50,836 nt of DNA from a virus, in the IMG/VR virus record IMGVR_UViG_3300042563_001342, positions 1 to 50,836 of that record; one strand, 5' to 3'. Shown piece by piece: positions 29,566 to 50,828 of this stretch. The notes below the pieces were generated by a model that worked only from the letters and a program-made list of their open reading frames with translations, ran no database searches and was not told where the DNA came from. Numbering within the stretch: the stretch's first letter is position 1; the number at the start of each line of letters is the position of its first letter. The translations under genes and the position numbers were made by a program.

Positions 29566-29604
29566 ATGATATCAATTAACATCACAGATATAAAATGGAA
29601 ATAG
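29566..29604 (+). pseudogene. 12-codon remnant of a small fibre-associated gene
   Basis: ATG followed by 11 codons gives MISINITDIKWK and a stop. The first seven residues resemble the starts MTAINIQSITG (20523) and MSTQITISNITG (17563). The remnant runs into the start of the gene at 29595 in another frame. It looks like the scar of a recombination that removed most of such a gene. Confidence 0.45.
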
Positions 29605-30626
29605 AATACAATTTTTGTTTAAATTCAAGTATTAATAATTTACAAATTCATTTTAATCCAAATGGATTAGATGATTATGAATATAATCAATGGGTATCCG
29701 ATGATTACACCTATTCAATTAATTGGGACACATCATTAAGTAGATGGAAATTGAATGGTGGTAACTTATCATATTCTATGTATTCTTCATTACCATCTTC
29801 AGTACCCCCACTTAACTCTTGGTACATATTAGGAGCTAATGGAACTGTTTATGTTAATGAAGGTGTTTGTAATCCATTAGGTATTAATTCATTAACTTAT
29901 AGTGTTAATCAACCAATATGTTCATGTGATGGTAATTTAATGGTAAATGTTTCAGGTGGTTATCCACCGTATCAATATTCAATTGATAATGGTGTCACTT
30001 ATTTTAATTCACCAATCTTTAGTCAATTGTGTTCAGGTATCTACAGTATTAAAGTTGTTGATATAAGTGGAAACACTAATAGTAATAACGTGACATTAAA
30101 TGAACCTGCATCACCAACTGTTTATAGTGTAAAATTATCAACTACGAAAACAAATCCGGTTAATAATAATACAACGTTAACTAATCAATATACAACAACA
30201 GTTAGTGTATCACCTGAATTACCAAGTGGAACCGTAATTAATTTTAACATATCACACGATAACAAATTTTACTATTCCCCAAGTGGTATCACCGCAAGTT
30301 TAGTTACCAATAGTGTATTATCTAAAAATAATATTTCAACACCATTTACATCAAGTGGTTCAACAACATCGGACGCAAATTTTAACATAATTCAAGGATG
30401 TCAATCATATGTTAAATATTTAGATTTCTATACTGAAACTTGGGAATCATTAACATTTACAAATTCTGATTCAATTGTTATTAACACAACCACAACAATA
30501 AATAATAACGGACCATTAACACCTTGTACGTATACATTAAGTGAAGATTTATATAATATCTTCAATGCAACTATAAGTGGTTGTGGATGTTGTATTGTAG
30601 AAATTGTTAACGTTAATCAAAAATAA
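29595..30626 (+). CDS. SprB-like adhesin, long paralogue of the 96-aa protein
   Basis: A 343-residue protein. Residues 1-95 are the duplicated N-domain shared with 20229-20519. Next comes one SprB-like repeat (SYxVNQPxC-type start, VNVSGGYPPYQYSIDNG, SGIYSIKVVDISGN; about 100-165). A beta-rich Thr/Asn/Ser domain follows (about 170-310) and a Cys-rich end (ISGCGCCIVEIVN). No enzyme motif and no signal peptide. It is a probable fibre or adhesin subunit. It shares its N-domain but not its C-terminal part with the short copy, which argues that N-domains are reused as anchors. Confidence 0.72.
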   Translation: MEIEYNFCLNSSINNLQIHFNPNGLDDYEYNQWVSDDYTYSINWDTSLSRWKLNGGNLSYSMYSSLPSSVPPLNSWYILGANGTVYVNEGVCNPLGINSLTYSVNQPICSCDGNLMVNVSGGYPPYQYSIDNGVTYFNSPIFSQLCSGIYSIKVVDISGNTNSNNVTLNEPASPTVYSVKLSTTKTNPVNNNTTLTNQYTTTVSVSPELPSGTVINFNISHDNKFYYSPSGITASLVTNSVLSKNNISTPFTSSGSTTSDANFNIIQGCQSYVKYLDFYTETWESLTFTNSDSIVINTTTTINNNGPLTPCTYTLSEDLYNIFNATISGCGCCIVEIVNVNQK

Positions 30627-30639
30627 AAAAAAATAAGAA

Positions 30640-30647
30640 TATTTATA
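30640..30647 (+). promoter_or_regulatory. TATTTATA late-type box
   Basis: An exact TATTTATA only 4 bases before the ATG at 30652. Confidence 0.55.
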
Positions 30648-30651
30648 TCAC

Positions 30652-33480
30652 ATGGGATACATATTAAAAAATACACAAGGGTTACTTAGTACAAGACTAA
30701 CCGATACCGGAAGACAAAATCTATCAAAAGGTAGTTTTAACATCTCTTATTTTCAAGTAGGTGATAGTGAAGTGTCTTATAACTCTTTACCTGATTCGTA
30801 CAATCAATTTACCACACAAATTCTTGAACCTGCGTTTAACTCTCAAAATTCAACAGGTGCTCCTGAATCTAACAAACAAAATGTTAAATACCCATATTAT
30901 GTTGATGGAATAACCGGTAACACGTATGGAATTCCTTATATGGCATCAGTCCCTCAATCGGTTTATAATAGAGCCGCAATGAGAGGATTTTTTACAGGAG
31001 ATACAACCTCAACAACTATTACTTGGAGCGCATTAACAAATAGCCAGTATACCATTAATTCTAATTATCTTGTAGATATGTCTACATTAATAGGTAGTAG
31101 TGTTATTCAATTAGTATATTCAGGATGTAATTCAAATATTGTAAGATTACCATCTATTGGTGATTTTGTAACAATATACTACGATGGTCAAGGTGAATAT
31201 AATTGTTATTGTGAACCAGGTCCAACACCAACACCAACATCAACACCAACATCAACACCAACTTACGATGCGAATCCAACACCGACACCAACGCCTACAA
31301 TAACAAAGAGTGCTAACATATGTGACCAAGGTCCAACACCAACACCTTCATCTACTTGTTGTACTACTCCATTACCACCTACTCCGACACCACCTGATTG
31401 TGAAATGTCAATGAGCAGTTGTTATTCAATCTTAACTTATAAAATTGTAGATATTTGTAACGGTGATTACACATTAGATAGACCCACACCTGACTTTTCA
31501 AACTTTTCAAGTGGATGTTTTGCCAGAGTATTAGTGTATCCTCCAAACATGACAACATTATATGATAGTATCACACCTAACTCACATTGGAATCAAAATG
31601 TAATTAATTTTGAATCTTTATGTAGTACAGATGAATCTGATGTTAAAATTTGGAATATGAACATTCCCTGGTCTGAAGACCCTGCTGGTTTATATGATTC
31701 AACATATAAAGGTTATCCTTACTTTGGTTCAGCATCTTATATGGGTAGTAAAGAATACTTTGGGTATATGTCGGATAGTGGTCAAACAGATAATGGTGTT
31801 GTATATTACTATAATTCATTTGATGAAGCAGTAGTTGTTCAACCTAGTGAACAAAAAGCCATTGCTATTATACATTATACCAACCAATCAATTGATTTCT
31901 TCTATGGTGAGAAATTCGCATTTCAACCTTATGACTCTGCAAACCCTACAGACACAACAGGAGAAGCTCGTAACTTTAGATTACACTTGCCGTGGTTAAT
32001 GTGGCATAAAAACCCTGATTGTTGTAAAGGAGAAACATTTTGGGTTGACCCACCAGGTTTTGACGAATATTTATTATTCCAACCATATTATATTGAATCA
32101 ACCAAAAATAGTGATATGAATACTCCGGGTATTAGATATTATCAACTTTGGGACACCCACGCAAATAGTAACGGTTTACCAAATAGAGTTGGTAAAGTAT
32201 TCCCTGATTCACAAATTATTATTATTGATGATGAAGAGATTATTGCTGCAATGTCTTACAAGTCAAATCGTAACTGGACATTACCGGCACCTAAAGTTGG
32301 GTTAACAACACCAAACACTTGTGTTGTTGAAAATAATCAACCAGTTGTTAAAGGTATTTTAAGTGCTGAAACTGAATACATGTATGTCACTTACAGATTT
32401 AGTAACAGCGCCTTATTCACTAATTCACTACATTGTAACTATTACACTAAAATTCAAGGACCTAACATTGAATGTGGTTCAGTTGCATCACAAAATGTAT
32501 CTGTTAGATTTGGGGCTGAATTTCCTTGTTTAAATCAACCTTTTGTTCTTCCAACATTAACACCAACTGCGACGCCAACCGCAACTCCTACATCAACACC
32601 GACTAGTACATCTACGGAAACACCTACACCAACACCTACACCTACGGAAACACCAACATCGACTCCAACCTCAACTCCAACACCTACGGAAATACCACCA
32701 ACACCTACACCTACGGAAACACCAACTGCAACTCCAACAGCAACTCCAACACCAACACCTACGGAAATACCACCAACACCTACACCAACACCAACGGCAA
32801 CTGCAACACCAACGGCAACTGCAACACCAACTCCAACTGCGACTCCGACACCTACACCAACGGAAACACCAACTGCGACTCCGACACCAACACCAACGCC
32901 AACACCTACGGAAACACCAATACCAACTTGTCTATGTTATACATTATATTACACCCCACCAATATCAGGACCTGAGACAGTAACAAATTACCAATATACT
33001 GATTGTGATGGATTCAATCAAAATATAGGTGTATTTGATTTAGCTCCAATAGATGTTTGTGCTCAAGTAGACACTATCGAAAAAACCACTGGTGATGGTA
33101 ATGGTTATTTTGAACCATCACTTACGGATTGTTGTAGTAATACATCAGCTGTCACTATTCAGAATTATAATGTGGCGTCTTTGTCTGGTCCAAGTGTTGA
33201 TGATGTACAGGTGGATTCAAGTTCTATTTTTGTAGTATCAGGAGCATTTCCAGTATATGGACAACAAACCGCTAAAGGAAATTATGGAAGTGGAACAGCG
33301 TCTTCTACAATTGGTGTAACTACTTCAAATATATCAAGCGCACCAGTAAATCTTTTCTTAAATGGTATATTTTATACATGTATTATAACATCGGGATATG
33401 CAGCATTTACAGGAGTCGATTTATCAACAAATCCAAATATAAGAATAACATTGGGCATATCAGGTCAAGCATGTATATAA
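30652..33480 (+). CDS. large modular tail/baseplate adhesin, 942 aa
   Basis: The N-terminal ~110 residues are the anchor domain shared with 29204-29551 ([26 protein letters not shown]-type motif, also known from other large phages). Residues ~115-185 form a beta domain, then come two short TPT linkers. A large globular domain (about 245-630) follows with many Trp, Tyr and Cys ([47 protein letters not shown]) and no motif I can name. About 125 residues of Thr-Pro linker ([10 protein letters not shown]) come next and a C-terminal Cys-containing beta domain. The central domain, presented between anchor and linker, is a candidate receptor-binding or glycan-degrading unit; catalytic residues cannot be assigned. 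Confidence 0.78.
31221..31305 (+). repeat. short Thr-Pro coding array
   Basis: About 85 bp of acaccn-type repeats linking the anchor and central domains of the 942-aa adhesin. Confidence 0.75.
32551..32926 (+). repeat. long Thr-Pro/Thr-Glu coding array
   Basis: About 375 bp encoding TPTATPT, TETPT and TEIPPTPT units, with repeated longer blocks (the acggaaataccaccaacacc block occurs twice). Confidence 0.9.
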
Positions 33481-33507: not shown

Positions 33508-34080
33508 ATGGAATTTTCAACCACAACAACAACAACACTATGCCCTACATCATGTGATTTAATACCAGGATTTTATGCTGATACTTTACAAATTATTTGT
33601 CAAAAAGTTATTGGAACAGGAAGACCTGACCCATCAGCATGGAAAATCATTGATTTTACACCACAAATAAGTGCAACAACAATAAATGGTTATCTAACCG
33701 TAGATAGTTTAACAGGAACCACATTTACAATCACTGAAGAAAACTATGCCGCCGCTGACGATTATAATTTAAATGATTTCATTCCATTAGTAGATAAAAA
33801 TTCAACATCACCTTCATTAAATTTTGGTGATGAATATTATTTCTATGGTTCATTAGAAACTGATATCCAAGCAACCATTTATGAAATGAAATATAAAATA
33901 AATCTTGGTCAAGCAGAATTTCAATCAACCTCAAACCCAACTTGGACTAAAGGAACAAATTCGTATATTACAGAAATTGGTCTTTACGATTCGGATAAGA
34001 ATCTTATGATTATATCAAAACTACAATCACCTGTCTTAAGACAAGGTATTCAACAGTTTTTGGTTAAATTTGATTTCTAA
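33508..34080 (+). CDS. tail-collar/fibre-base type protein, 190 aa
   Basis: A 190-residue protein. After a short Thr-rich start (STTTTTTLCPTSC) there is a beta-rich body. The C-terminal part contains YITEIGLYDSDKNLMIISKL (about 150-169), which matches the EIGLYDxxGNL core of the N-terminal tail-collar-fibre domain (DUF3751 type) of phage tail proteins. Unlike in classical fibres the motif lies at the C-terminus. Probably a baseplate or fibre-attachment subunit. It lies 6 bases before the RuvC-like gene and after the 942-aa adhesin. Confidence 0.65.
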   Translation: MEFSTTTTTTLCPTSCDLIPGFYADTLQIICQKVIGTGRPDPSAWKIIDFTPQISATTINGYLTVDSLTGTTFTITEENYAAADDYNLNDFIPLVDKNSTSPSLNFGDEYYFYGSLETDIQATIYEMKYKINLGQAEFQSTSNPTWTKGTNSYITEIGLYDSDKNLMIISKLQSPVLRQGIQQFLVKFDF

Positions 34081-34718: not shown

Positions 34719-37700
34719 TTATGTACAAGAACCTGTATTTACTATAATTTCTAATGATGAGAGTGGTGACACATTCATATTTAAAAACACAAGAGATTGA
34801 AATTCATTTGATATTGATATTGGTAGGAGTTGCGAATCATAATACTCTCCATCAACAATTAATGAAACACAATGAGACGGTGATAAAGTAATTGGTAAAA
34901 ACACTATTGTTAGAGATTCGTTATTTAATCCATAATGAACACTATCAAAAGGAGTCTGATTCGTTATAGGAAATGGAGATGTATCAAAGAAATAAAATTC
35001 TGGTATTATATTTGTAATTTGGATATCGTCTTTATTAATACTAACAAGGAAATTGGTTGGCTTCTCTTCTATTAATACAGTTTTACATTGTTCACAAGAA
35101 TCAATAGTATCATTTTCAGATGAATAAATTGTATTACTAACAGTTGTGAAATAATTAGTGTTCCAAGTTTGAACATTTAATTCAGGAGGTAAGTTTGTTG
35201 GTTGTCCGTTATAAATTTTTATTAATTTCCAACACGTCACATCACCTCTAACGTCAGTAGAACTAAATCCGTCACTCAGTTCTAAACCAGGCAATACTAA
35301 TACAGGTTGCAATATATAGGATGTTTCTCCATCAAAATTTAAATCACATGATGAGTATAAATACCACAATGGGTCTGAACTAGGTGTTGGTGTCATAGTT
35401 GGCGTTGGAGTTTGAGTTGGTGTTAATGTTTGAGTTAATGTTGGTGTTAACGTAGGCGTTTGAGTCGGAGTTGGTGTTAATGTTTGAGTTAATGTTTGAG
35501 TAGGAGTTGGTGTCGGTGTTAATCCAGCTGTTGAGGTAAGAGTTTGTGTTGGAGTAGGCGTTGGTGTTTGAGTTGGTGTTGTTGTTAGAGTTTGAGTTGG
35601 TGTCGGTGTTGGTGTTGAGGTTGGTGTTATTCCACAGTATTGACATGAAATATTATAGTCAATAAGCATATCAACACTAACATCTGTCGCAACCAAATAT
35701 TGTTCTTCACATTTTGCAATTATTTGAATTCCGTTATTTAATGGGTCAATATTAACTTGAGCAACTTGGTCAAAACTTTCTAATAAAGCAACTAAAGCAT
35801 CAAAATATTCCTCATCCGTTGGGAAATCATTTAAAACGTAACTAATGTAAAACTCTGAAGTTTCTGTTACATCTCCAATAGTTGCAACTATATTAAAAAT
35901 AGCTTGATTAAGTAAACAATTTGTATATCCGGATGTTAAATCATAATATCCTTCACTCAACATTTGTTTAGGTCCTTTTTTAACTAACTCCCCAATGTTT
36001 TCAAATTCACTATCACAAATATTAAACGTTTGAAATGATGAGATTGAATCAAACCCGTCTATTGTTACCTCTCTATTTTTAACACATCCTTCACTATCTG
36101 TGATTTGTAAACTGTATGTTCCGGCACTTAAATTACTTAAATAATAACCTGTTTGACCATTTACATTATTACTCCATAGTAAGGTGAATGGTGGTGTCCC
36201 ATTCGTTATATATGCCGATACTGTACCATCATTACCATTATTAGCATCAGTACCCGATAACATAAAATCAACATTTTCTGAAGTATCAATTGAAAAATTA
36301 ATAATTTGTGCACAACCCGGAATAGCATCATCTATTTCCGCGACATACGCACCTGAAAATAAATTATTAAATGTTACCGCACTTGTCTCAATTTGTTGTA
36401 ATTGACTACCTATATTTACTGTATAAGGTGGCGTGCCACCTGAAATACTAATTTGTACAGAACCATTTTGTAAATCACAAGTTGTCCCTGTTGTACTAGC
36501 ACTTAAAGTAAAAGGTGATGTAGTTGATATTGTATATGGATTAGTATATACACAGGCACCATTATCAGATATTGTTAATGTATAATCATCTGGTGCCAAA
36601 TTAACAAATTGCCACACAGCTGAATTAGTAACCTGTGTTTGAGTATCATTATTTGAATTTACTAATGTATATGTATACGGAGATTGACCACCTAAAAGAG
36701 TTATTTTTATTTTTCCATTATTCCCACAATTTGCATTTATTGTATCAATAGTTACAATTGAAAATCCATTTGGTGTTAACACAGTTATTGACCCTGTGGC
36801 TGAACATAAAGCAGCATCAGTAACTTTTATAGAGAATAACCCTGCTCCTATATTTTGAAATGTTTGCGAAGAACTAAACGAAACATTTATTTGACCTGTA
36901 GATGCTGAGTAATAATATGGTCCTGTCCCACCTGAAACAGTCACCGTAACCTCACCATCAGACGAAAAACAAGATGGTGGGACACTAGTTAAAATACCCG
37001 CAATACCTAATGGAGGGACTAGCCCAACTGTCGCACTTTGAGATAATACGCAATTTGTACTATCGGTTATAGTAACACTATACGTTCCATTTGTTAATCC
37101 TGTAATAAAGTCAGTAGTTTCTCCATTTGACCATAAATAAGTAAACGGAGCATTACCCGTTAAACCTGTCACATATATCTTACCTGACTCAACACTATTA
37201 CACCCTGAATCTTCAACAACATAAAAACCCCAAGTAATTGTGGTTGATGGTTTTATAATAATAGTTTCTGATGTACCTGTACATCCTCCTCCATCATCAG
37301 CAACAACATAATAAATTCCAGGCGATAATACCGGTGGCATTATAAATGTATTATAACCCGTTGTAGCCGAGGTTATAAACCCTGTTAACGTATTATATAA
37401 ATAAAAATCGGCAGAACCATAGAAATTACTTGTTTGAGCCGTCAACGCTCCATTATTAAAATTACAGGTAGTATTTTGTTGACCTGTAATACTTACACAT
37501 GTACCACTAGAAATATTAACATTTACCGGTAAAATAGTTTGAGATGGAGAAACACACGAATCTAAAACATTAAACGTATACGTACCAGCAGATAATGTTG
37601 TCGCGGTATAACTTGTTACACCTACACCTAAAGATATTGTTCCAAGAGCAGGATTAATCCACTGAATACTATAATCCGGTGCAGTACCATAGATATCTAC

Positions 37701-37772
37701 ACTGAAAACTCCCGAGTTTGTATTTGAACAATCTCCCGTTATACTTAAATTTACACTTAAACTACAAGCCAT
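34719..37772 (-). CDS. SprB-repeat adhesin at the end of the baseplate operon
   Basis: A 1017-residue protein. Residues ~1-570 hold seven SprB-like repeats of about 80 residues, each with G-(G/T)-x-x-P-Y/F-x-Y/L-x-W-S-N-G and L-x-x-G-x-Y-x-x-x-I-x-D-x-x-x-C. Examples are [45 protein letters not shown] and [19 protein letters not shown] mixed alpha/beta domain follows (about 575-710), then about 80 residues of TPT/TQT linker (35381-35629) and a C-terminal beta domain of about 215 residues. SprB repeats build the gliding-motility adhesin of Flavobacteria; here they appear on a phage tail protein. Its start overlaps the stop of the upstream baseplate gene by one base (TAATG). Confidence 0.83.
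35381..35629 (-). repeat. Thr-Pro coding array on the minus strand
   Basis: About 250 bp of repeats encoding TPTPTQTLT-type units. Stretches resemble the plus-strand arrays at 18591-18807 and 27213-27562, giving inverted homology between the two blocks. Confidence 0.88.
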
Positions 37773-40700
37773 TAATTACATAAAATTTCAAAATTTATTC
37801 CAACATTCAATTTAAAATTGATTCCCGAATCATTTACAGAACAAATTGAACTATAAACCACAACATTAGTATCATTTAAAATATACTCAAATCCATAAAA
37901 ATCTAAACTATTTAATGCGGGTATTAATGCCGCATCCCATTGAGCCGTTGTTGGTGAACTCAAACCAGTGTTAGTATATCCTATACCTGTAAAAAATTCA
38001 TATTGAACAATCACAATATCATCTAAACTTAATACTACATACCAAGTACTTTTTAACGTATTTTGTACACAATCATTTAATTCATAACCTTGTGATGTTA
38101 AATAATTCCCTAACAAATAACCTAACACTGACTCAAATGATGTTAATAGAGGATTAGTTTGCCACGGATAGATAGAACATTGTACGGATTGAACATAACA
38201 ATCATAAGTATAAAGATTACTAACCATTGAACATGGGTTACAAGGTACAGGTATTAACTGACATCCTTCTTGTCTTCTCCAAACAAATTTTTGTCTATGG
38301 AATATTGAATTTTCGTATTTAACCCCTGTGTTCCAAATAGTACTCGCCGGAATCATTTGTTCCACAAGTCTTACCCAATAATCACCCATTCCATCTACAT
38401 ACTCAATCATGTTAGTATAGTTGAAACTACCATCCGGCACTCCAGCTAATTTCTGAGCATCCAAATATTTCCAATATATTGATTGTAGGGTCGGATAACC
38501 CATAGTTTTACCATCTGTTGAGAATTGTCTATTTCTAACATTAATCATGTTCTTCCAAAATGTTTGGGCAAACTCAAAGAATGTTTTACGTTTTGGTTGT
38601 GGATTTATTTCTGTCCAATCCACACCACCTCTCATCGGATAATTTGATATTGGATTTGGGTCACAATAAGTTGGTTGAACATAATTTAACCCCTCATTAG
38701 GAATCGGAAAATTATATTCTCTTGACATAACCCACACATCATAGGATAAACCTTGAGCCGGGTTTAAAAATAAATCGGTATTTTTGGCATTGAGTACTAA
38801 CGCATCGTTTGTTGTGTAATATCTTGCGTTATAACCACCATCTAAATTTGAACGTAACCCAACTTCTGTATCAACCCAACTTTTATTGTTATCAATAGTT
38901 TGTGTTAAGTTGTACCCTAAATTCATAAATGGAAACTGAGCAAACCTATCAAAATATTCCTGACCATAGGTATATGGCGCTAAAACTGTTTGATAGTTAG
39001 GGTTCGCCCCTGTAAACACACTGTTAGTATAACTGACTTCTTCCGGTGCTCTATGTTTTGGAGTCTGTTCAAACCATCCACTACCTTTTTCAAAAAAATA
39101 ATCGTCAGTGTTAACTGGAGCTTTAGGAAATCCAAAAGCGTCCATTGGATATTCATCTTTAGTTATGTTCACATCTTGTATTACAGTTGTTGTAGTAAAT
39201 CCAGTATAGGTATCTTGTCTAAACTTATATGTATTACCCGCCTCTAATGTCGGTAATTCCTGAACATAAGTTCCACCAGATATTTGCGCAAACTGATTAT
39301 TAAATTGTTGAACATTAATTCGTTGGTCGGCTAAATAAATATACTCGTTAAATTCAACTAAAGCATCGGGAGCACCAATTAAAGCCATTAAAGTCTCTAT
39401 TGATTTTCTAGTTCCCTTTGATTTAAACAAATAAGCCGAGTTTAATATTAAATTTCTATAATATTGATAGTTTAATTCATCCGGAGTTGTTGCATCTGAA
39501 ATACCAGGATATTGAGATTTATCTGTATTTGTTTGTCCAAAAACCGAACTTAAAAAGTCATCTGTAGACACAGGCGACATATTTGTTTGCCACCCTAATG
39601 TTTGTGATAAATTTTTAAGTAACTGAGATGGTATATCATCACCAGGATTATAATGAACAGAATTCATAAATGCTAACGCACTTATAAATTTATTAGTTTC
39701 ATCAAAACTTCTACCATAAATTTGTAAAACTTTTTCCATTTTTTGACCTAAAGTGTCAAATTCTTGGAATGCTCCCGTAACTAAAAATCTTGCAATAATA
39801 TTTGTTTTATAACCATCTAACGATATTCCAATGTCATTTAACTGAATTAGATAATTAGTGAAAGCGTTTGTTACAATATCTAAATTCCAAGACCCATTTA
39901 AAGGAAATGTAACAAATTCTTGTGAAGAAAAATAACTACCATCATCAGCATCTCTTGGAACATTAAAACTTGCTGTATATTTTGGGGTAACATTTCTATT
40001 TAATAAAAAACTCTCAACTTCATCTAAGTCTTCATTAAAAACTCTATTAACTTGATAATCATTTGGTCTAATAACTAAATCGTCAAACGTAAATGATTGA
40101 TTTGGAAAAGGGTCACCACTAACAGTCACATTTAAAGTTCCTGATGTAATTGAGGTTGTTGGTATAATTGCCGTCACATTATAACCAATACCTCCATAGT
40201 ATAAACTATAATAAGCATATTGAACGGTCATATCTCTAAGTGCCGACACTTGAATCTCTTTTAACGCAAGATTTCTAGTTGAATTAATCGTAAAATCAAT
40301 CGCAAATGGATTTCTTAATTTAGAAATATCTAAATCAAAACTTGTTATATTATCAATTTGGTTATAAGTTATATTTGTTGCCGTCTCACCTTTAACATAA
40401 TTCTCACCCATAATAGTCGCCTCAAGAGCCGCAGGGAATTTGGATATAATTGTTTCAACCGAAGTGGAAAGTCTTTTAACCAAAGAACCATATTGTGTGA
40501 AATTTGTTATTTGGCTTAAATCAAAATTAGGATAAACTTTAAAGTTATTTTCAAAAATTGCTCTTGATTGAATAGTACTTTCTAACCCTAATCCTTCTAA
40601 ACTAATTGGTTCCGAAAATGTTCCGGTATTAAAAGTTCTATTAGTCTTTTCATTAAAAGAGGTCGCAAATTCAAAATTACCCTGTGTTAAACCACCCCCC

Positions 40701-40789
40701 GTGACTAATTGAAAACCAACTAAATCATCAGAGAATGAACTTGCACCGGAAGCACCTTGTGGAGGACATGTAAATTTTTGTAACGCCAT
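37772..40789 (-). CDS. large baseplate protein with tail-protein-I-like segment
   Basis: A 1005-residue protein with a beta-rich N-terminal third. A helical middle part follows: [42 protein letters not shown], and [31 protein letters not shown] (about residues 450-480). The last recalls the 'long helix, KGT, helix' element of P2 gpI-type baseplate proteins. Trp/Tyr-rich stretches ([20 protein letters not shown]) and a Cys-rich segment ([13 protein letters not shown]) lie in the last third. It is therefore a probable baseplate wedge or tail-tip protein. Both ends overlap the neighbouring genes by one base (TAATG), so it belongs to a coupled baseplate operon. Confidence 0.75.
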
Positions 40790-41703
40790 TATTCAGTTAT
40801 GTTTGTAAAGTTTTTACTAAAATCAATATTATCACCTCTATTTTGTCTAACTTCGTATAACAATGTATTAAATTGGTCTCTAATTTCGTATAGATTATAT
40901 TGTTGGTAAATGTTATTATTTGTATCGTAAATCGTGTAAATACCATCATCCATAGATTTAGTTTGATTACCGTATAACGCAATTGCCAATGTTGAGAAAT
41001 CTTGGTCTGCAATCTCAATATCAAGTGTTATAGGATTGAAGAAAGTATTTGAGATTATAATATTTTGATTTGGCTGTCCAATATATGGTGTTGCATTTGG
41101 TTTGTTTGTCGGAGATGATGACGGAGAAACTGTACAAAAGATTATATTTGTATTATTATCCGTATATCTATATCTAATCGCCTTTTGTGATGTGTTTGTT
41201 AAATTTTGAACAACCGGTTCACAAAAGAATGATGACGTAATAATTCTAAAGAAATTAGGTATTTTTGTTCCATCAGAGTTCAAATATTCAATTCTAAAAC
41301 CAACTAAACCTTGATTAACAAATTTATTTCTAAATTGACTTGGGACATCGTTCAAATCAATAATAATACCTTTTACGTTAGGTAATGATGATAATACACC
41401 ACAATCCAAAATACTCGTTCTAATCTCCGCTGGTCTAATATATAAGGTGTAGATACCTAATTGGTTAAATTGTTCCGCAGGCAGTCTTAAATTATATAAT
41501 CCACCCAATATTTCAACATTAGGGTTAGGACTTGAACTTGTTTGTTGATTATTAAAATAAGGTCTTAATATTGATACCGCATCTAACTTTGTTAATACAA
41601 AATTATCTGTTTCATCTCTTGATGGTGTATAATTAAGAATGATGTCCACATCTTCGGGTGATACATCTGCGGGTCTTATTGTACCGTATGTTCCTGTTGC
41701 CAT
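40789..41703 (-). CDS. structural protein of the baseplate operon, 304 aa
   Basis: A 304-residue beta-rich soluble protein (GIYTLYIRPAEIRTSILDCGVL, GFRIEYLNSDGTKIPNFFRI) with a short Ser/Pro/Asn-rich linker near residue 195-205. The C-terminus (LYEIRDQFNTLLYEVRQNRG) is helical. No enzymatic motif. It is coupled by TAATG to the 1005-aa baseplate gene and follows the 407-aa gene by 9 bases. Its conserved place in the operon suggests a baseplate or tail-tip subunit. Confidence 0.68.
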   Translation of the reverse strand: MATGTYGTIRPADVSPEDVDIILNYTPSRDETDNFVLTKLDAVSILRPYFNNQQTSSSPNPNVEILGGLYNLRLPAEQFNQLGIYTLYIRPAEIRTSILDCGVLSSLPNVKGIIIDLNDVPSQFRNKFVNQGLVGFRIEYLNSDGTKIPNFFRIITSSFFCEPVVQNLTNTSQKAIRYRYTDNNTNIIFCTVSPSSSPTNKPNATPYIGQPNQNIIISNTFFNPITLDIEIADQDFSTLAIALYGNQTKSMDDGIYTIYDTNNNIYQQYNLYEIRDQFNTLLYEVRQNRGDNIDFSKNFTNITE

Positions 41704-41712
41704 ATTATTATT

Positions 41713-42936
41713 TTAATCTATTTTTATTATGTTAAAAAATTTGTAACCATATTTTTCAAGGTCACCTAAATTATCTACTTCACCTAATCTTTCCATTGAT
41801 TCTAACCCGGAAACTTTTCCTCTTTCTATAAATACATTGGATTGAACTTCTGGCTCATCAATTACATTTAATAATGCCTCATTTTTTACAATTGGTTCAC
41901 ATACCGTATCAATTGTTGTTACACCACTAACAACAAATAGAGTTGTACCATCACTATAATCATAATAATCAACACCATTTATTGTGTATCCGGTGTATAA
42001 TTGACTACCATTTGTACTTCCACCCCAATATGTACCTATAACACCTGTTGTACCCGTTATTTGAACCCCTATTTTATAATATCCATCAACTAAAGTAGAT
42101 TTTTTACCATAAACTCTTAAATCCGACACCGATGATTGAGTATAACCCGTTATTACTAATGGTACTGTTAGATAAGGATTAATACCACTTTGATATGTTT
42201 GACAACTAGAGTCCCCACTATAAATAAAATCATAACAAATTGGTGTTGCCGACCAACTACCACCCATTGGGGTAAAACAAGTTGTACCTTTTGGGTCTAA
42301 TATTGTCGCATTTGTAAATGGTACATGTACCGTTTTCTTTACTACATTGGAACCCCACGGACTCATACCTGACATACTAATTGTAAATCCACTCGGAGGA
42401 CTTGGTACATAAGTGTGTTGATAAAAATTAGGACTAGTAGAGGTTATTATTTGTTTTGGGGTACCGTCTCCCCAATCTATTTCATAATTTGAGAATGATA
42501 GATATTTTTTAAATTCAACATCCGAAGTATTATAAAAATTGTAAGTATATGCGTCAGTTGTATTAGCTGAGAACAAAAAGTTAGTCATTACTTCTTGTTG
42601 TAAAATCATCCCATCAAAAACTGAATAATATCCAACATCAACCGTATTTTCAGTTATCAATATCGGAATAGTTAATCCTGTTAATAATGATGTTCCTGGT
42701 TTGAGTGTTGCCTTTGAAATATTAGTAGTGTTTGTTCCACCTGTTAATATTTGAGTCATTGATGAATATACATAAGCAGACCCATCAATATATTTGGTTA
42801 CCTCTCTAGTATAAATGTCACAACAAAAAGGAATTATCTGTTGTTCAAGATATGGGTCTCCGATATAATTAACTTTAAAAACATCACCATTAATTACTTC
42901 CGGAGATATTCTTATACGATATGTGTTTGCACTCAT
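41713..42936 (-). CDS. structural protein with PKD-like unit, 407 aa
   Basis: A 407-residue beta-rich protein. The N-terminal part contains YRIRISPEVINGDVFKVNYIG. A PKD-like stretch (YEIDWGDGTPKQI...YQHTYVPSPP, about residues 150-180) lies in the middle. The C-terminus carries a conserved tail-protein motif, VFIERGKVSGLESMERLGEV followed by LEKYGYKFFNI (about 365-405), that I recall from structural proteins of other large Bacteroidetes phages. It is probably a baseplate or tail subunit that docks through this C-terminal motif. It is coupled by TAATG to the 266-aa gene. Confidence 0.7.
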   Translation of the reverse strand: MSANTYRIRISPEVINGDVFKVNYIGDPYLEQQIIPFCCDIYTREVTKYIDGSAYVYSSMTQILTGGTNTTNISKATLKPGTSLLTGLTIPILITENTVDVGYYSVFDGMILQQEVMTNFLFSANTTDAYTYNFYNTSDVEFKKYLSFSNYEIDWGDGTPKQIITSTSPNFYQHTYVPSPPSGFTISMSGMSPWGSNVVKKTVHVPFTNATILDPKGTTCFTPMGGSWSATPICYDFIYSGDSSCQTYQSGINPYLTVPLVITGYTQSSVSDLRVYGKKSTLVDGYYKIGVQITGTTGVIGTYWGGSTNGSQLYTGYTINGVDYYDYSDGTTLFVVSGVTTIDTVCEPIVKNEALLNVIDEPEVQSNVFIERGKVSGLESMERLGEVDNLGDLEKYGYKFFNIIKID

Positions 42937-43736: not shown

Positions 43737-45531
43737 AATCGTCTATTATTGGTTCTGCGGTTATGTTTTGTTCACTATAATTAGTTCCTTCTGGTATTAT
43801 TCTAAAAATAATTGTGTCATTTGGATAATGAACACCATTTAAAAATGGATAATTAACCCCAACATTATCTGAATCAATATAACCATAACTATATAAATCT
43901 TTCCATAAAAAAGAGTCTTTACTTGATGAGAAATAAGCATAGTTTGGAACATCTACAACATTTTTCTTATCACCCTCTTCAATATATGTTGAAAAAGCCC
44001 TTATACTTAATCCATGATGAGGTTGATAATAATATCCAAATGGATTACCCACCTGTGGATTTGATGTACCTATATCAAACACTTCAGGGTTGTACGTTAT
44101 TTTATGAAACAATGTTGAAATAACTCTTTCAGTTTGTTCAAAATTATTCCATTCACAATAATCACCATCTAATGTATCACCTTCTTTTAATGGTAAAACA
44201 TATGTAAAATTAATTTTTTGACCATTTAATTTTGTCCCCAATGGTGTTTGATAAGTACCTAAAGGAAAATTAGTGTCTGAATCTGAATTATTATCTCTCC
44301 ACCAAAAAGACGATAGTTTATCTGTGGGGTCTAAAGGTAAATTAAATTCATACCCTTTCTTTAAACCATAATCCCCTAACCCAGCACCTTTAGGTCTTCC
44401 TAAAGTTAATCCGAAATAACCTTTCCAAATAGTCGTAAAAAATAACTCAGTAATTGGTCGTTGTAAATTGTCTAATAATGGATTTATTTTAATATCTTTA
44501 CTAAAAGATAATGTGTAATTTTGCGAACCTTCCTTTATTGAAACTCTCGCAATTCTATTGGGTGTATAACCACTACTTTCATATTTTTTCTTAATACCAA
44601 AAATATTTTGGTCAAATCCTGCGTTAACTAAAACTGCGTCATCAACATTAGTTAAAATCTTATGTTTTCTAACATAATATGATGAGGTAGTATCATCAGG
44701 GTTATCAGAATTAACAACTCTTTTAAATGTACCTTCAACACCATCATCAAATGTTAATCCGGTAAAACCAACATTAAAAATATTAAATATATATAAATCA
44801 CTACCATCAAACCCATCACCTAATGAATATACCTCAAAAGTGTCAATATTATTATATGAAAAATTTAACTTAACCGATTCACCAGCAGTTAATCCATGTT
44901 TAACAGGACATCTAAAAGCAACAATATTTTGACCATTATTTTCATCATTTTCAATAATAAATGGTATACCATCAGACGCCACCCAATTTAAAGTTTCTGT
45001 TGTTTTTTTCTCAATAGCCGCTAATTTTTGGTTATAAACATTTTCAAAAGGATAACTTATAAAATGATTCCAATTATATGTTGAGGCACTTTTGCTCACA
45101 AAATTAACATGACTATAACCACTAATATTTGGAACGGTATAACCAATTTCATTGTAATCACTTCTAATAAAATCAAACTCATGATACTGAGGAAATCCTG
45201 TCCACGCAATATCTGGGTTAATAGGACAATTAGATTGTGCCGCCGCAACCTCATTAACATAATACAAATTATTTTCTAATGGAACATAATTTGTGAATCC
45301 AGTGTACGAATTATTAAATAACACGGAAAATTTACATGTAGGTCTAAAAATATCAGACTTTTGTCTTTCATCATTAAACACTTGTTCTAAATTTACATCA
45401 ATATTTCTATCAAACTCAACATTTTGTTGAGCAGTTTGAACTAATGGTACATTAAACATCAGATTAGTATCTGGTGCTGATTTATACCTTAATGAACCTA
45501 AAATTACTCTTGTATCTATTCTATTACCCAT
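43729..45531 (-). CDS. structural protein of the baseplate operon, 600 aa
   Basis: A 600-residue protein with many Phe, Tyr, Asn and Asp and a beta-rich pattern. Notable stretches are FRPTCKFSVLFNNSYTGFTN, VAFRCPVKHGLTAGESVKLN (about 200-225, resembling the HGLxxGxxVxL element of beta-sandwich tail proteins) and SFWWRDNNSDSDTNFPLG. No enzyme signature. It follows the giant protein gene by 2 bases and overlaps the next by 8 bp, so it is expressed as part of the tail operon. Probably a baseplate or tail component. Confidence 0.66.
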   Translation of the reverse strand: MGNRIDTRVILGSLRYKSAPDTNLMFNVPLVQTAQQNVEFDRNIDVNLEQVFNDERQKSDIFRPTCKFSVLFNNSYTGFTNYVPLENNLYYVNEVAAAQSNCPINPDIAWTGFPQYHEFDFIRSDYNEIGYTVPNISGYSHVNFVSKSASTYNWNHFISYPFENVYNQKLAAIEKKTTETLNWVASDGIPFIIENDENNGQNIVAFRCPVKHGLTAGESVKLNFSYNNIDTFEVYSLGDGFDGSDLYIFNIFNVGFTGLTFDDGVEGTFKRVVNSDNPDDTTSSYYVRKHKILTNVDDAVLVNAGFDQNIFGIKKKYESSGYTPNRIARVSIKEGSQNYTLSFSKDIKINPLLDNLQRPITELFFTTIWKGYFGLTLGRPKGAGLGDYGLKKGYEFNLPLDPTDKLSSFWWRDNNSDSDTNFPLGTYQTPLGTKLNGQKINFTYVLPLKEGDTLDGDYCEWNNFEQTERVISTLFHKITYNPEVFDIGTSNPQVGNPFGYYYQPHHGLSIRAFSTYIEEGDKKNVVDVPNYAYFSSSKDSFLWKDLYSYGYIDSDNVGVNYPFLNGVHYPNDTIIFRIIPEGTNYSEQNITAEPIIDDCE

Positions 45532-45533
45532 AA

Positions 45534-48500
45534 TTAATTAACAAAGGTTGTTGTATCAATCCATTTAGTTGTAAACCTATCAAATGCAGACGCACCTTTC
45601 TTTAAACCAAAGTAAAAATGAAATGGAGCACCTACTGTTACCGAGTCTTCTTTCGGATTATTTCTCTCCCAATTTCCAATAAATTCATCTATTTGACCAC
45701 TAGCGTTAACTGCGTAGATGTATCCTTTATAATAATTAGTCTCAGATGAATTATTATCAGTACCTCTAAAATATCTTGATGTTGTTTCTATTCTATCCAT
45801 TGATTGATATTTTAACGAGAGAAAACTACCATCACCATTAATTGGGTCTGTATTCCAACCATTATCTTCTTTTCCAAATATCGACGGATTACTCGATAAT
45901 TCTTCAATTCTCCATTGATAAAAAGGAACTTGTTGACTAAACGCGTCAAAATAACTAAATCCACAAGGTGAGTTATCCGGAACAGTATCATCAACAATTG
46001 TTCTTTTCGGTGTAATAAAGTCTCTTGTTTGAGTATCCGAATTAAAGAAAATTCCAATAACCGCACTATCTGATGCAAACCCATTCCAATAAACAGGATT
46101 TTGTTGTGGTGGTGGATTATCCGGATAATTTAGCGATTCAAAAGGTGCAACCCCAAGTTCAGAATTAATTGAAATTAACTGAGCATAATCACCATCAACT
46201 TTATATTTTACACGACTAAAATATGCTGTAATATTAGACCCCACCAAAAATTGTAACATTTGGTCAATAAAACTTTTATTTATTAATCTACTAATAATCA
46301 ATAAATTTAATATTTCTGTCACATTACCATAAGTTGTTGTTGCCAATTTATTTGCAACATATCCATCATATGCGTCAGACATAACTAATTCTTGTAAATA
46401 AGCACTTCTTGGACCTAAATCAATTAAAGTTGTTGGTGTTAATAAATAATTAAAATTATCTCCTTGAGCATTACTAAAACTAGATGATGATGGTCTATTT
46501 TTACCAATAAAAATACCAGTAGAATCTTTATATGGACTACATCTATAATAAAAATTATTAGTTGGGTGTAGCACCAATGTGTCTGTACAAAATTCACTAT
46601 TAGCAACATTTGGTTGGTTTCCAAATGGGCTACCATACGTAACGTCATTATGGAAGGAATACGCGTATAAAGTACCATTTATCCAATTATTCGCAAATAT
46701 ATGTGACCAAACATTTCTACACGCACCAAGATTAATACTACTTCTAGATATCCATTCAGTTAATAAACCAAAATCTCGAAGTAATGAAACAAAAACTGTT
46801 GTTACAACAATATAACAACCCCCTTGAAAGATTGTCTTTCCATTATATTCTTCACATCCGCCGTGATTTATTGTTATATTACCGTTACTATCATCACCAT
46901 AACACTCTAATGGCACAGAACCACTACAAGTAAATGAATTAATTACACTATTTGTGAAATTTTGAGTATCCCCCGTTAAATCTTGAGATGCTCCACCACC
47001 ACCTGTAGACGCCGCACTAACAGTTGTATCAATACCCACTAAACCTTCATCAGGAATATCATACATCATAAAAGATGAATTATGTTGCAACGAAAATCCA
47101 TTACAACAAGTTTGTTCAACAGTAGTTGAGGTCGGTAATCTATCCGACCTCATAACCATTTTTCTATTAGTAGTAGGTGTTGAAGTTAAAATATAATTTA
47201 AAGTATTACCCGTTGTATTATATATTGGTGCAAAATAATTACCATCCCAAGACCAACTGTAATTATTTGGATTAATATCTGGATTAGAAATTAATCTCAT
47301 ATATGCTAAAGACCCTCCTTCAACAATTTCACCAATATAATACCCTCTATTTTTTGTTGTATCAGAACCATTACCATTACTAACCGGAGCATAAGTAGTA
47401 CAACTAAATACCCCACCAAAACCATAATTACTGGTTTGTGACAAACTCCATTCACTTGTAAAATCATTTTGAGCAATAACTTTTAAACCATACACACTGT
47501 TTGCTTGAGCCCCATCAGAAACTGGTAATGGGAATTCAAAACCCACCTCAGGACCAGGACAACTTGGTCGATAAGTTAAAGCGTTGTTATCTAATCTAGA
47601 ATAATAACTAAATAACGGAGAGGTGAATGATGAAAATGAAGTGGTGTCTGCGGTAAAATCAAACGTATCAAAATATAATTTTTCACCTGAATATGAATCT
47701 GTTGCTAAATTATTTGGTATGTTATTTTTATCGTGACTAACATTTTTGAATTTTCCTTGAATAGGATAGTTCATTTTGTAATTACCCTCAATAATTAATG
47801 AGGGGTCGCTACCTAAATTTTTACCAAATAAAATATTTAAATCGTATCTAATTTTCACTCTCGGTACATTAGGGTCAACACCTCTATTTAAGATTAAAAC
47901 ACATTGTTGGTCAGGGTCTTTCAGATAATTTATTGGTTTTTTTAATATTGGAAAATCTTGACTACCATCTTTAGTGTAATCTCCACCCCAACAACCTGCT
48001 GGTAGTTCACTACCACCTGCCCATCTTTGAAGAAACATATCATTATGTAGAAATCTTTCATTAAGAGAATTAGGTATTGTTGTCCCACATTGTCCACTAA
48101 ATTCAGAATAAGTCATACCTGTTATAACTTGGAAATATTCTAAATCCATCGGGAATTTATAATAATTATTATAACCATTTGTTGTACCAGTAAATTCCGT
48201 TGAACCCGTTAACATAACATTATATGTAACCCCTGAAGGAGAACCCGCCGGATTAGGGTTAGCATAAGAGAAAGAAACTTGTGTCATTCCTGTAGATGTA
48301 AATCCTGTAATCGCTTGATTACCATAAGAATTTGTTACACCACTAAATAAATTAATATCTTTGGTTAATGTAGGGTTTTGAAATGAAATCATTTGACCAA
48401 CTTTCAAACTATTTAAACTATTTTTATCACATAAAATGACTATAGTATTATCATAATGGAATTTAGTTAAAGGACTATTATTTGCCGGGTCAAATGTTAC

Positions 48501-50828
48501 TTTTATTCTATTAACACCACCACCCGGATTTGAACCAGGACTTCCATCAAAATACTTCGCCTTTGTGTTAAACAAATTCATTCTTTCCGCCAAAGTTAAA
48601 TTAGACGAAAATATATAATCATTTTCTTGATTACCATTAAGCTCATAAACAATTTCCTGTACTTTTGGAATCCCAACACTATTATCACTATCACCAGCGG
48701 GTATTTTACCTGAATAAATTGATGTAACAGCATTTTTTATTGATGAATCCACCGAATTACCCGGAATTTTATATAAAGGACTACTAACCCCCAACAAAAC
48801 TAAAGATGACGATAATGCGTTATCCGGTGCAGGGTCAAGATATATATATGGGCAAGGTAACTCCTCTGTAGAATCTCCTGAAATATCTGAAACGGAAGTG
48901 CTCGCTTCTTCACTCACACTACCTTCAGTACCAGGTGTTTGACCAACAGAACAATCACATAAATCACAATCCGGATAAGTTAACATAGGTAATGAAATAC
49001 CTTTTAAATCCATCTTCCATAATTCCTTCAATATAATAACAAAAGCCGCAATAAGCAATATATAAAGAATAATTTGTAGTAAGTACCCAACAATTAAACC
49101 TAAAGCATATGGTACAGTCCCCACAACTAAAACCGCCGTATTGACCACCTGTACCGTATAATAAAGTATTAACGCCGGTATTATTAATATTCTAAGCAAC
49201 ATTATTGTAAAATATAATAAATGGGCGGTAATCAATAATAAAAAAAGCACCGGTCTAAATACCATCATTAGAAATGAATATAAAATATAAATGATATCAA
49301 ATCTCATATTAGAATCATTTGTTGGAAATTTGTTATTTTCACTATTACAACTATCATCCAAAATATTTTTAATCCCAATAAATCTATCAGGTGTAATACC
49401 TTTTCTAAATTTATCAACTAACTGAGATACTGTATAAACTTTATTATATTGCATTACATAAAATTTATCGTCACAATCAATTGCTTCTTGAATCATTTGT
49501 CTACCAATGTTTGCACCACTACTTGTAGACGTACCTGTATATCCATAATCCGCCCAATCTAAACTAAAAGCATATGATTTCATAGCCAAATCATACGGTG
49601 AATTCAATGTTCTATTAGAAGAACTCAATGGGTCTGAACCACTAGTAGTCCACCCATGTTCTCTAACATTTGGTACAATAAAATAACCTCTCTTTATTTG
49701 TTCTGATAATGATGGAGACTGGTCCCATTTTACTTTAAAACGACATTTGGCTCTCGTTGGAATACCTTTTTTAGGGTCATTTGATAAGACTTGTTCCCCA
49801 AACTCATTTGTAATGTAATAATCCAAATTCATTGGTATATCAACTAACCACGTACCATTTGAATCAATTACTTTACCCCCCTCATCTAAATCAAAAGATT
49901 CCAATATTGGTCTACCATATTCATCTTGGAATATTGTTTGACGTATACCTAAAATTTCACCAGGACCCGTAGTTAAACTACATAAATAACCCGCATTACC
50001 TCTAACTTGACACGTTCGTTTTAAAGCATCCTCATCAGTTGTAGAAACTATGGAACCCATAAAAATAGCTGTAGGGTTAATATCAATCCCCGCTTCCGAC
50101 GATAAGTCAAAATCTGTTCTTGTAATCCCTAAATTACATATTTGTGGTTGACCCCATAAAGGTTCAACTTCAACAGTTCTATTAATAGTTATAATTTGAG
50201 GTAAACTTCTTAAATTGGTTGATGATTTAAATGAAACTCCCGCAACTTGAGATGGTGTAGCAATACCCATTCTTATTAAATCTTGTGGTGATAATGAAAA
50301 TTCTCCAATATCCGATAAGTCAATATCAACAACAATTGTTTGACTACCGGTTGGTAATCCAAATATCATATAATCCCCACTTGTATTAGTTACTGTGGAA
50401 AATTTATAGTATTTATCGTAAACTTGGATTAATGTTGGGTCAACTAAAACATCTTTTCTAGTGAAGAAGGTTCCAGTTGGTATATGACCACTGTGGGATT
50501 GAGTATATGGTAATAAATTATAACGGTATCCGTCATCATTAAGGTCAGAAAGTGATTTATAAGGGTATAATTCGGAAATTACGGGGTCTAATTCATCAGT
50601 ACTATCTAATGGAACAAATATTGAAACTTTAGCGTTTGGAATACCAAAACCATTATTAACACTAACTCTACCGACAAGAACTCCATAATCCGAGCATTGT
50701 CTAGTATATATTTGACTTTGTAATATTTTTAGAGATAATATTTCTAAATACTCAAATTCTTGGTCTATCAAGACATTAAGTGATTTATCAACACCAGGCT
50801 CAGTTCTTATTCTAAATGAATTGGACAT
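45534..50828 (-). CDS. giant virion-type protein with internal membrane segments, 1764 aa
   Basis: A 1764-residue protein that starts 9 bases inside the right edge. The N-terminus has a carboxypeptidase-regulatory/CNA_B-like unit (VLVGRVSVNNGFGIPNAKVSIFV and YYKFSTVTNTSGDYMIFGLP, about residues 48-165), the type used as stalk or domain spacers. Residues ~508-602 contain about four closely packed hydrophobic segments (FLMMVFRPVLFLLLITAHLL onwards), followed at once by a Cys-rich CDLCDCSVGQ motif. The last ~1100 residues are beta-rich and Ser/Thr/Asn-rich with no named motif. Membrane segments in the middle of a tail protein are unusual and suggest insertion into a host membrane during DNA entry. 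It is probably the first gene of the baseplate operon in this window. Confidence 0.75.
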   Translation of the reverse strand: MSNSFRIRTEPGVDKSLNVLIDQEFEYLEILSLKILQSQIYTRQCSDYGVLVGRVSVNNGFGIPNAKVSIFVPLDSTDELDPVISELYPYKSLSDLNDDGYRYNLLPYTQSHSGHIPTGTFFTRKDVLVDPTLIQVYDKYYKFSTVTNTSGDYMIFGLPTGSQTIVVDIDLSDIGEFSLSPQDLIRMGIATPSQVAGVSFKSSTNLRSLPQIITINRTVEVEPLWGQPQICNLGITRTDFDLSSEAGIDINPTAIFMGSIVSTTDEDALKRTCQVRGNAGYLCSLTTGPGEILGIRQTIFQDEYGRPILESFDLDEGGKVIDSNGTWLVDIPMNLDYYITNEFGEQVLSNDPKKGIPTRAKCRFKVKWDQSPSLSEQIKRGYFIVPNVREHGWTTSGSDPLSSSNRTLNSPYDLAMKSYAFSLDWADYGYTGTSTSSGANIGRQMIQEAIDCDDKFYVMQYNKVYTVSQLVDKFRKGITPDRFIGIKNILDDSCNSENNKFPTNDSNMRFDIIYILYSFLMMVFRPVLFLLLITAHLLYFTIMLLRILIIPALILYYTVQVVNTAVLVVGTVPYALGLIVGYLLQIILYILLIAAFVIILKELWKMDLKGISLPMLTYPDCDLCDCSVGQTPGTEGSVSEEASTSVSDISGDSTEELPCPYIYLDPAPDNALSSSLVLLGVSSPLYKIPGNSVDSSIKNAVTSIYSGKIPAGDSDNSVGIPKVQEIVYELNGNQENDYIFSSNLTLAERMNLFNTKAKYFDGSPGSNPGGGVNRIKVTFDPANNSPLTKFHYDNTIVILCDKNSLNSLKVGQMISFQNPTLTKDINLFSGVTNSYGNQAITGFTSTGMTQVSFSYANPNPAGSPSGVTYNVMLTGSTEFTGTTNGYNNYYKFPMDLEYFQVITGMTYSEFSGQCGTTIPNSLNERFLHNDMFLQRWAGGSELPAGCWGGDYTKDGSQDFPILKKPINYLKDPDQQCVLILNRGVDPNVPRVKIRYDLNILFGKNLGSDPSLIIEGNYKMNYPIQGKFKNVSHDKNNIPNNLATDSYSGEKLYFDTFDFTADTTSFSSFTSPLFSYYSRLDNNALTYRPSCPGPEVGFEFPLPVSDGAQANSVYGLKVIAQNDFTSEWSLSQTSNYGFGGVFSCTTYAPVSNGNGSDTTKNRGYYIGEIVEGGSLAYMRLISNPDINPNNYSWSWDGNYFAPIYNTTGNTLNYILTSTPTTNRKMVMRSDRLPTSTTVEQTCCNGFSLQHNSSFMMYDIPDEGLVGIDTTVSAASTGGGGASQDLTGDTQNFTNSVINSFTCSGSVPLECYGDDSNGNITINHGGCEEYNGKTIFQGGCYIVVTTVFVSLLRDFGLLTEWISRSSINLGACRNVWSHIFANNWINGTLYAYSFHNDVTYGSPFGNQPNVANSEFCTDTLVLHPTNNFYYRCSPYKDSTGIFIGKNRPSSSSFSNAQGDNFNYLLTPTTLIDLGPRSAYLQELVMSDAYDGYVANKLATTTYGNVTEILNLLIISRLINKSFIDQMLQFLVGSNITAYFSRVKYKVDGDYAQLISINSELGVAPFESLNYPDNPPPQQNPVYWNGFASDSAVIGIFFNSDTQTRDFITPKRTIVDDTVPDNSPCGFSYFDAFSQQVPFYQWRIEELSSNPSIFGKEDNGWNTDPINGDGSFLSLKYQSMDRIETTSRYFRGTDNNSSETNYYKGYIYAVNASGQIDEFIGNWERNNPKEDSVTVGAPFHFYFGLKKGASAFDRFTTKWIDTTTFVN

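Follow-up and report, generated by a model that had tools for sequence, protein, structure and literature searches.

A conserved membrane-type hydrophobic block in a baseplate-operon protein of uncultured jumbo phages with block-free tape measure proteins

The window analysed here is the whole 50,836-nt stretch of viral DNA (positions 1 to 50,836 of IMG/VR record IMGVR_UViG_3300042563_001342). A re-check of its open reading frames (ORFs) placed a minus-strand ORF encoding a 1764-aa product at 45534-50828. This gene, its parts and its operon neighbours are as follows.

45534..50828, minus strand: 1764-aa baseplate-operon protein with a membrane block (ORF, family, synteny)
49308..50828, minus strand: N-terminal part, residues 1-507, the best-conserved part (65% identity), with a weak carboxypeptidase-regulatory-like (beta-sandwich) match
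49011..49307, minus strand: hydrophobic block, residues 508-606 (hydropathy, AlphaFold2)
49149..49301, minus strand: conserved hydrophobic core, residues 510-560, with near-invariant H536 (relatives' alignment)
48951..48968, minus strand: invariant C-x2-C-x-C, residues 621-626 (relatives' alignment)
45537..48911, minus strand: C-terminal part, residues 640-1764, predicted to be beta-rich, with conserved C1301, C1309, C1325, C1338, C1370 and C1414
43729..45531, minus strand: 600-aa operon neighbour, kept in 4/4 jumbo records compared, no family match
41713..42936, minus strand: 407-aa operon neighbour, kept in 4/4 jumbo records compared
40789..41703, minus strand: 304-aa operon neighbour, kept in 4/4 jumbo records compared (synteny)
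37772..40789, minus strand: 1005-aa protein with a gp7/gpI-like motif (23 letters), likely wedge partner of gp6 (motif by eye, synteny)
34719..37772, minus strand: 1017-aa SprB-repeat protein closing the operon, likely adhesion

A sequence-only reading of this DNA had described residues ~508-602 of the 1764-aa protein as almost continuously hydrophobic and followed by a Cys-rich CDLCDC motif, and both observations were confirmed. The mean Kyte-Doolittle hydropathy of residues 510-604 is 1.93, vs. a maximum of 1.13 (mean 0.55, SD 0.14) for the best 95-residue window in 2000 shuffles of the protein. The only charges within residues 512-600 are R525 and R546, plus H536, and CDLCDC lies at residues 621-626. 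These shuffles, together with conservation of the block in the protein family, rule out chance or a frame artefact as its source. Hydropathy thresholds served as a stand-in for a dedicated topology predictor; KD50 and KD19 denote Kyte-Doolittle hydropathy over 50 and 19 residues. AlphaFold2 drew the block as two long helices (509-570 and 576-605; pLDDT mostly 67-87); prediction outside it was poor, and the models as a whole were weak (mean pLDDT 44.7 and 52.2 for monomers modelled from alignments of 31 and 29 sequences). A simplified insertion-energy scan, indicative only, was favourable at 527-545 (0.1) and 582-600 (-2.5).

Searches of the 1764-aa protein against PHROGs gave no match. Its similarity to PF13620 (carboxypeptidase-regulatory-like) scored 16.7-18.6 bits, below the gathering cut-off of 32.3, with 16 of 31 members matching at E≤0.01 (best E 1.6e-4). 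Nothing convincing was obtained among PDB sequences; a sperm channel subunit matched at E 0.011, with the alignment covering the hydrophobic stretch. Foldseek comparison of the AlphaFold2 models returned nothing significant in PDB or BFVD, an absence that says little because the models are poor.

Relatives were collected from IMG/VR, where a pattern-plus-tblastn scan with a single sequence as query yielded 114, and at least 579 were obtained when an alignment of residues 1-760 was used. Searching 50,697 annotated phage records with each of three different members detected none, and a single pattern scan across 84,980 prokaryote genomes was also negative. All 102 distinct relatives of sufficient length have a hydrophobic 50-residue window (KD50 1.30-3.09, median 2.28) followed within 250 residues by C-x2-C-x-C. 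The cysteines of this motif and Y618 are invariant or nearly so, and the motif is part of ~15 near-invariant cysteines spread along the protein, which include C45, C231, C273, C283, C452, C494 and the six C-terminal ones listed above. For the 46 relatives less than 60% identical to the window protein, identity is 65% over residues 1-500, 27% over 510-560 and 15% over 561-606. In these sequences the hydropathy of 510-560 is 1.08-2.59 (mean 2.01); residues 561-606, polar in many, average 0.45 and in some fall below zero. As this second segment is so often polar and block length ranges from 46 to 102 residues (median 69, with 1-6 charges), the conserved module corresponds to ~2-3 helices, not four. 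The earlier count of about four helices is thus fair for the 1764-aa protein itself, for which AlphaFold2 draws two long ones, but family-wide only ~510-560 is always hydrophobic.

Lipid-facing segments usually maintain their hydrophobicity while their sequence drifts. An alternative is that the block forms a buried helical core of the baseplate, for instance an inter-subunit bundle, and never contacts lipid. Such a core would fit the long continuous helices drawn by AlphaFold2, and a 19-residue stretch with KD19 2.07 does occur in the baseplate protein T4 gp7. The KD50 of T4 gp7 is, however, only 0.54, far weaker than the family range, and packed cores usually conserve sequence, whereas here the sequence drifts at constant hydrophobicity. 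The polar residues of the core columns (~10%, confined to nine columns) also argue against burial; H536, within the core, is retained in nearly all relatives. We consider a buried core unlikely.

As the window stops 8 bases upstream of the 1764-aa gene, and its contig, a fragment, contains neither gp6 nor a tape measure protein (TMP) gene, the upstream context was read from relatives. One of them, a 318-kb record (L014), encodes a protein 93% identical to the 1764-aa protein. The common order in four jumbo records (L014 and records of 322, 272, and 215 kb) is gp25 (GPW_gp25, above cut-off), gp6 (Baseplate_J) and the 1764-aa homologue, followed by genes of ~600, 400, 304, and 1005 codons and the SprB-repeat gene. 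Farther on lie ribonucleotide reductase and helicase genes and those for 2300-aa and 1671-aa proteins, then the putative tape measure, a hub-like protein, the tube and a 1108-aa sheath; the phages of this group are contractile-tailed. The gp7/gpI-like motif, read by eye against proteins of Microcystis phage Mel-JY01 and Flavobacterium phage immuto, is in the separate 1005-aa gene, which rules out the 1764-aa protein as gp7 and makes it an addition between gp6 and gp7/gpI. The order gp25, gp6, gp7/gpI-like, as expected of a virion baseplate, is conserved, and the gene, initially assigned to a tail operon, belongs more exactly to a baseplate operon, as its relatives show.

Several other features were observed around this operon. 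The start of the 407-aa neighbour (41713-42936, minus strand), MSANTYRIRISPEV, resembles that of the 1764-aa protein, MSNSFRIRTEPGVD; the likeness was seen in G001 too, was not caught in G002-G004, and possibly reflects a shared docking motif. An alpha/beta-hydrolase-like 304-aa protein (L014:9012-9926, plus strand), with homologues in G003 and G004, is encoded between gp6 and the membrane-block gene in some members and is missing in others such as G002; it has a hydrophobic stretch at its N-terminus (KD50 1.58 in G001). A 190-aa protein (window 33508-34080, plus strand) has matches in a number of different large tail proteins from Mel-JY01, immuto and the uncultured phage LR756508, behaving as would a shared fibre-terminal domain encoded on its own. 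A DUF5122 beta-propeller protein and SprB-repeat proteins (window 27738-29162 and 29595-30626, plus strand; 34719-37772, minus strand), convergent with or closing the tail operon, are likely adhesion parts.

The gene's position also bears on a second alternative, in which the block would tether the protein to the infected cell's inner membrane, making it an assembly platform for the baseplate or tail or giving it another non-virion role, with no part in penetration. A newly made multi-helix hydrophobic block is normally recognised and inserted into the cytoplasmic membrane. Producer-cell membrane proteins tied to contractile systems do exist, CisA being an example (PMC12237407). Yet this is a gene of a late baseplate operon, located between gp6 and the gp7/gpI-like one, the protein lacks an N-terminal signal, and ~500 residues of soluble domain come before the block. 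As an inner-membrane platform would, in addition, leave the block-free TMPs described below unexplained, we give it little weight.

Among named records, gp6 had a match only in immuto, Mel-JY01 and LR756508. Their TMPs contain hydrophobic blocks with KD50 of 1.78, 1.74, and 1.60, respectively; the immuto TMP is annotated, and for Mel-JY01 and LR756508 we took as TMP the long protein after the sheath/tube region. At the TMP position of the 318-kb record is a 631-aa protein with a maximum KD19 of 0.95, encoded beside a tube homologue (E 1e-40) and a hub-like homologue (E 1e-16). It aligns to residues ~331-623 of the Mel-JY01 protein (blastp 8e-7; hhalign P 3e-5, probability 73%). A TMP profile search of the 190-kb Mel-JY01 genome gave the TMP gene as its single match, at a weak E of 0.012, and an hmmsearch of the named relatives' tail proteins with the group TMP profile found no TMP. 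Its position and the weak alignment to a named TMP suggest that the 631-aa protein is the tape measure. A 637-aa G001 protein (29791-31704, plus strand; KD50 1.14) with a weak PHROG tape-measure match (E 2e-4) was set aside as a rival TMP, being distant from the tube gene.

TMPs placed in seven records have KD19 of 0.84-1.35. An IMG/VR scan gave at least 557 relatives of the group TMPs, and the block was absent from all 49 distinct near-complete sequences (502-668 aa) among the best 80 (KD19 0.75-1.48, none >1.6; KD50 0.21-0.59). Nine uncultured TMPs of Mel-JY01 type (1200-1321 aa, some nearly identical) reach KD50 of 1.26-2.25, and no block was found in any of 45 proteins >1000 aa from Mel-type baseplate loci (n=47). 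Twelve ORFs of 346-412 aa near gp6 in Mel-type loci (L321, L326, L350 and others) contain a hydrophobic stretch with KD50 of 1.35-1.47. The 1764-aa family is the sole large tail-module protein with such a block in four genomes, and the top two hydropathy values among 82 proteins of ≥500 aa in two whole jumbo genomes belong to it. Only the 322-kb record encodes an unrelated 1329-aa protein (G002:C1:184670-188659, minus strand) with a block of its own (KD50 1.48).

With a hydrophobic multi-helix block the 1764-aa protein shares one trait with TMPs, a likeness in kind and not evidence of descent. Its gene follows gp25-gp6 rather than the tail tube and hub-like genes, where the separate ~630-aa protein is encoded; apart from its blank PHROG search, the family profile found no homologue anywhere in the immuto, Mel-JY01, LR756508 or T4 genomes. 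Given the separate TMP, the 1764-aa protein was ruled out as the tape measure. Block composition differs as well (Leu 24% and Ile 16% in the 1764-aa family vs. Ala ~20% and Gly ~15% in the relatives' TMP blocks), which would make the change a functional replacement and not a homologous domain that moved. Of two sets of related tails, one thus has the hydrophobic module in its TMP and the second has it in a baseplate-operon protein, so the part that opens the membrane may sit in a different tail component. That this tail-module protein has a genuine membrane-type segment, as proposed from the sequence alone, is well supported by its presence in 102 of 102 distinct relatives, by hydrophobicity kept despite drift and by the lack of one in the TMPs of the same phages.

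Phages of this group have genomes of up to 322 kb, and their predicted hosts are freshwater Bacteroidota. The SprB repeats of the window, a known feature of gliding adhesins in Bacteroidota, fit such a host. Genes for bS21 and for Hsp70 were each found in four of six jumbo records; in the L014 record, bS21 and Hsp70 (DnaK) are encoded at G001:C1:44411-44560 and 112763-114541. The context checked in G001 places bS21 (44411-44560, plus strand) in the TerL-portal region, adjoining the portal gene (45333-47189, minus strand) on the opposite strand, an arrangement described for bS21 phages of freshwater Bacteroidetes (PMC9723584). The group may overlap these phages and the moraphages, in whose genomes no TMP was identified (PMC12619734).

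Taken as the best available function, ejection or insertion into the cell envelope as a DNA channel would operate as follows. The hydrophobic core (2-3 helices per chain, more in some lineages) would be shielded in the assembled baseplate, become exposed on tail contraction and insert in a host membrane, most likely the inner one, where several chains would jointly line or seal an opening for DNA passage. The C-x2-C-x-C behind the block could act as a metal- or disulfide-held anchor. We infer virion location, exposure on contraction, the oligomeric channel, the role of the cysteines and the substitution for the TMP module. That the 1764-aa protein is a baseplate component carrying the membrane-inserting module that the nearest named relatives have in their TMP is a reading to which we give about an even chance. 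We hold more tentatively, as somewhat less probable, that a very abundant uncultured jumbo lineage swapped TMP-borne for baseplate-borne insertion, with a ring of baseplate proteins, not an ejected TMP, opening the inner membrane; the direction of this change, from TMP to baseplate protein, is our assumption. Insertion from the baseplate offers no account of why the block does not enter the producer's membrane while virions are being built. A further point against it is that the hydrophobic blocks of the TP901-1 TMP may serve chaperone binding instead of membrane insertion (PMC5099701).

The block could also insert in the outer membrane on landing and fix the baseplate there, with no channel through the inner membrane. 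T5 pb3 and the TMP pb2 have been proposed to anchor there (PMC10038345). Baseplate proteins do reach the outer membrane first; an anchor in it would by itself leave the missing TMP block unexplained. As insertion in the outer membrane mostly uses beta structure, we regard such an anchor as very unlikely.

What is new here is a block in a baseplate-operon protein combined with a block-free TMP, as against a block in the TMP of the nearest named relatives. DNA passage across the inner membrane by contractile phages is poorly resolved; debate centres on the hydrophobic helices of TMPs, whose role is disputed between membrane insertion and chaperone binding. The clean split between a TMP without and a baseplate-operon protein with the block lets these two roles be separated. 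The group also yields a recognisable TMP (~630 aa, without a hydrophobic segment) and, in the 1764-aa protein, a marker for jumbo phages that occur commonly in metagenomes but are missing from culture collections.

Among known systems, bS21 phages of freshwater Bacteroidetes and moraphages resemble the group in being jumbo, contractile and of similar size; no mention of the 1764-aa protein or a membrane block was found in the papers describing them (PMC9723584, PMC12619734). Like T4 gp7, the 1764-aa protein is a large baseplate protein encoded beside gp6. T4 gp7 has its one hydrophobic stretch near the C terminus, and its GenBank note predicts a membrane domain; a single stretch of this kind in a baseplate protein is therefore not decisive. 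Unlike in T4 gp7, the block is mid-protein and far longer, another gene carries the gp7/gpI-like motif, and the family profile has no match in T4. CisA and membrane-anchored contractile injection systems (tCIS) likewise tie a membrane component to a contractile baseplate, but CisA, a bitopic protein in its own right, works in the producer cell and does not belong to the particle (PMC12237407).

The closest likeness in kind, a long multi-helix block in a phage-tail protein, is with TMPs that have TM regions (TP901-1, diffocin CD1366, T5 pb2, immuto, Mel-JY01 and LR756508). For T5 pb2, helices that enter the host membrane and form the DNA channel have been proposed (PMC10038345), and for diffocin CD1366 a channel of fifteen helices from a trimer (PMC10996793); the first hydrophobic region of the TP901-1 TMP is essential, its authors favouring chaperone recruitment over membrane insertion (PMC5099701). 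The TMPs of T4 and T5 are stated to have little or no TM region, as TMPs of phages with Gram-negative hosts can (PMC10996793), while T4 gp29 has one strong 19-residue stretch by the measure used here (KD19 2.20, KD50 1.04). The presence of a TM region in TMPs is thus graded, and its lack in the present group need not imply transfer. The 1764-aa protein differs from all these TMPs in being encoded after gp6 and not after the tube gene, in being predicted as beta-rich and not coiled-coil, and in occurring alongside a separate, block-free TMP.
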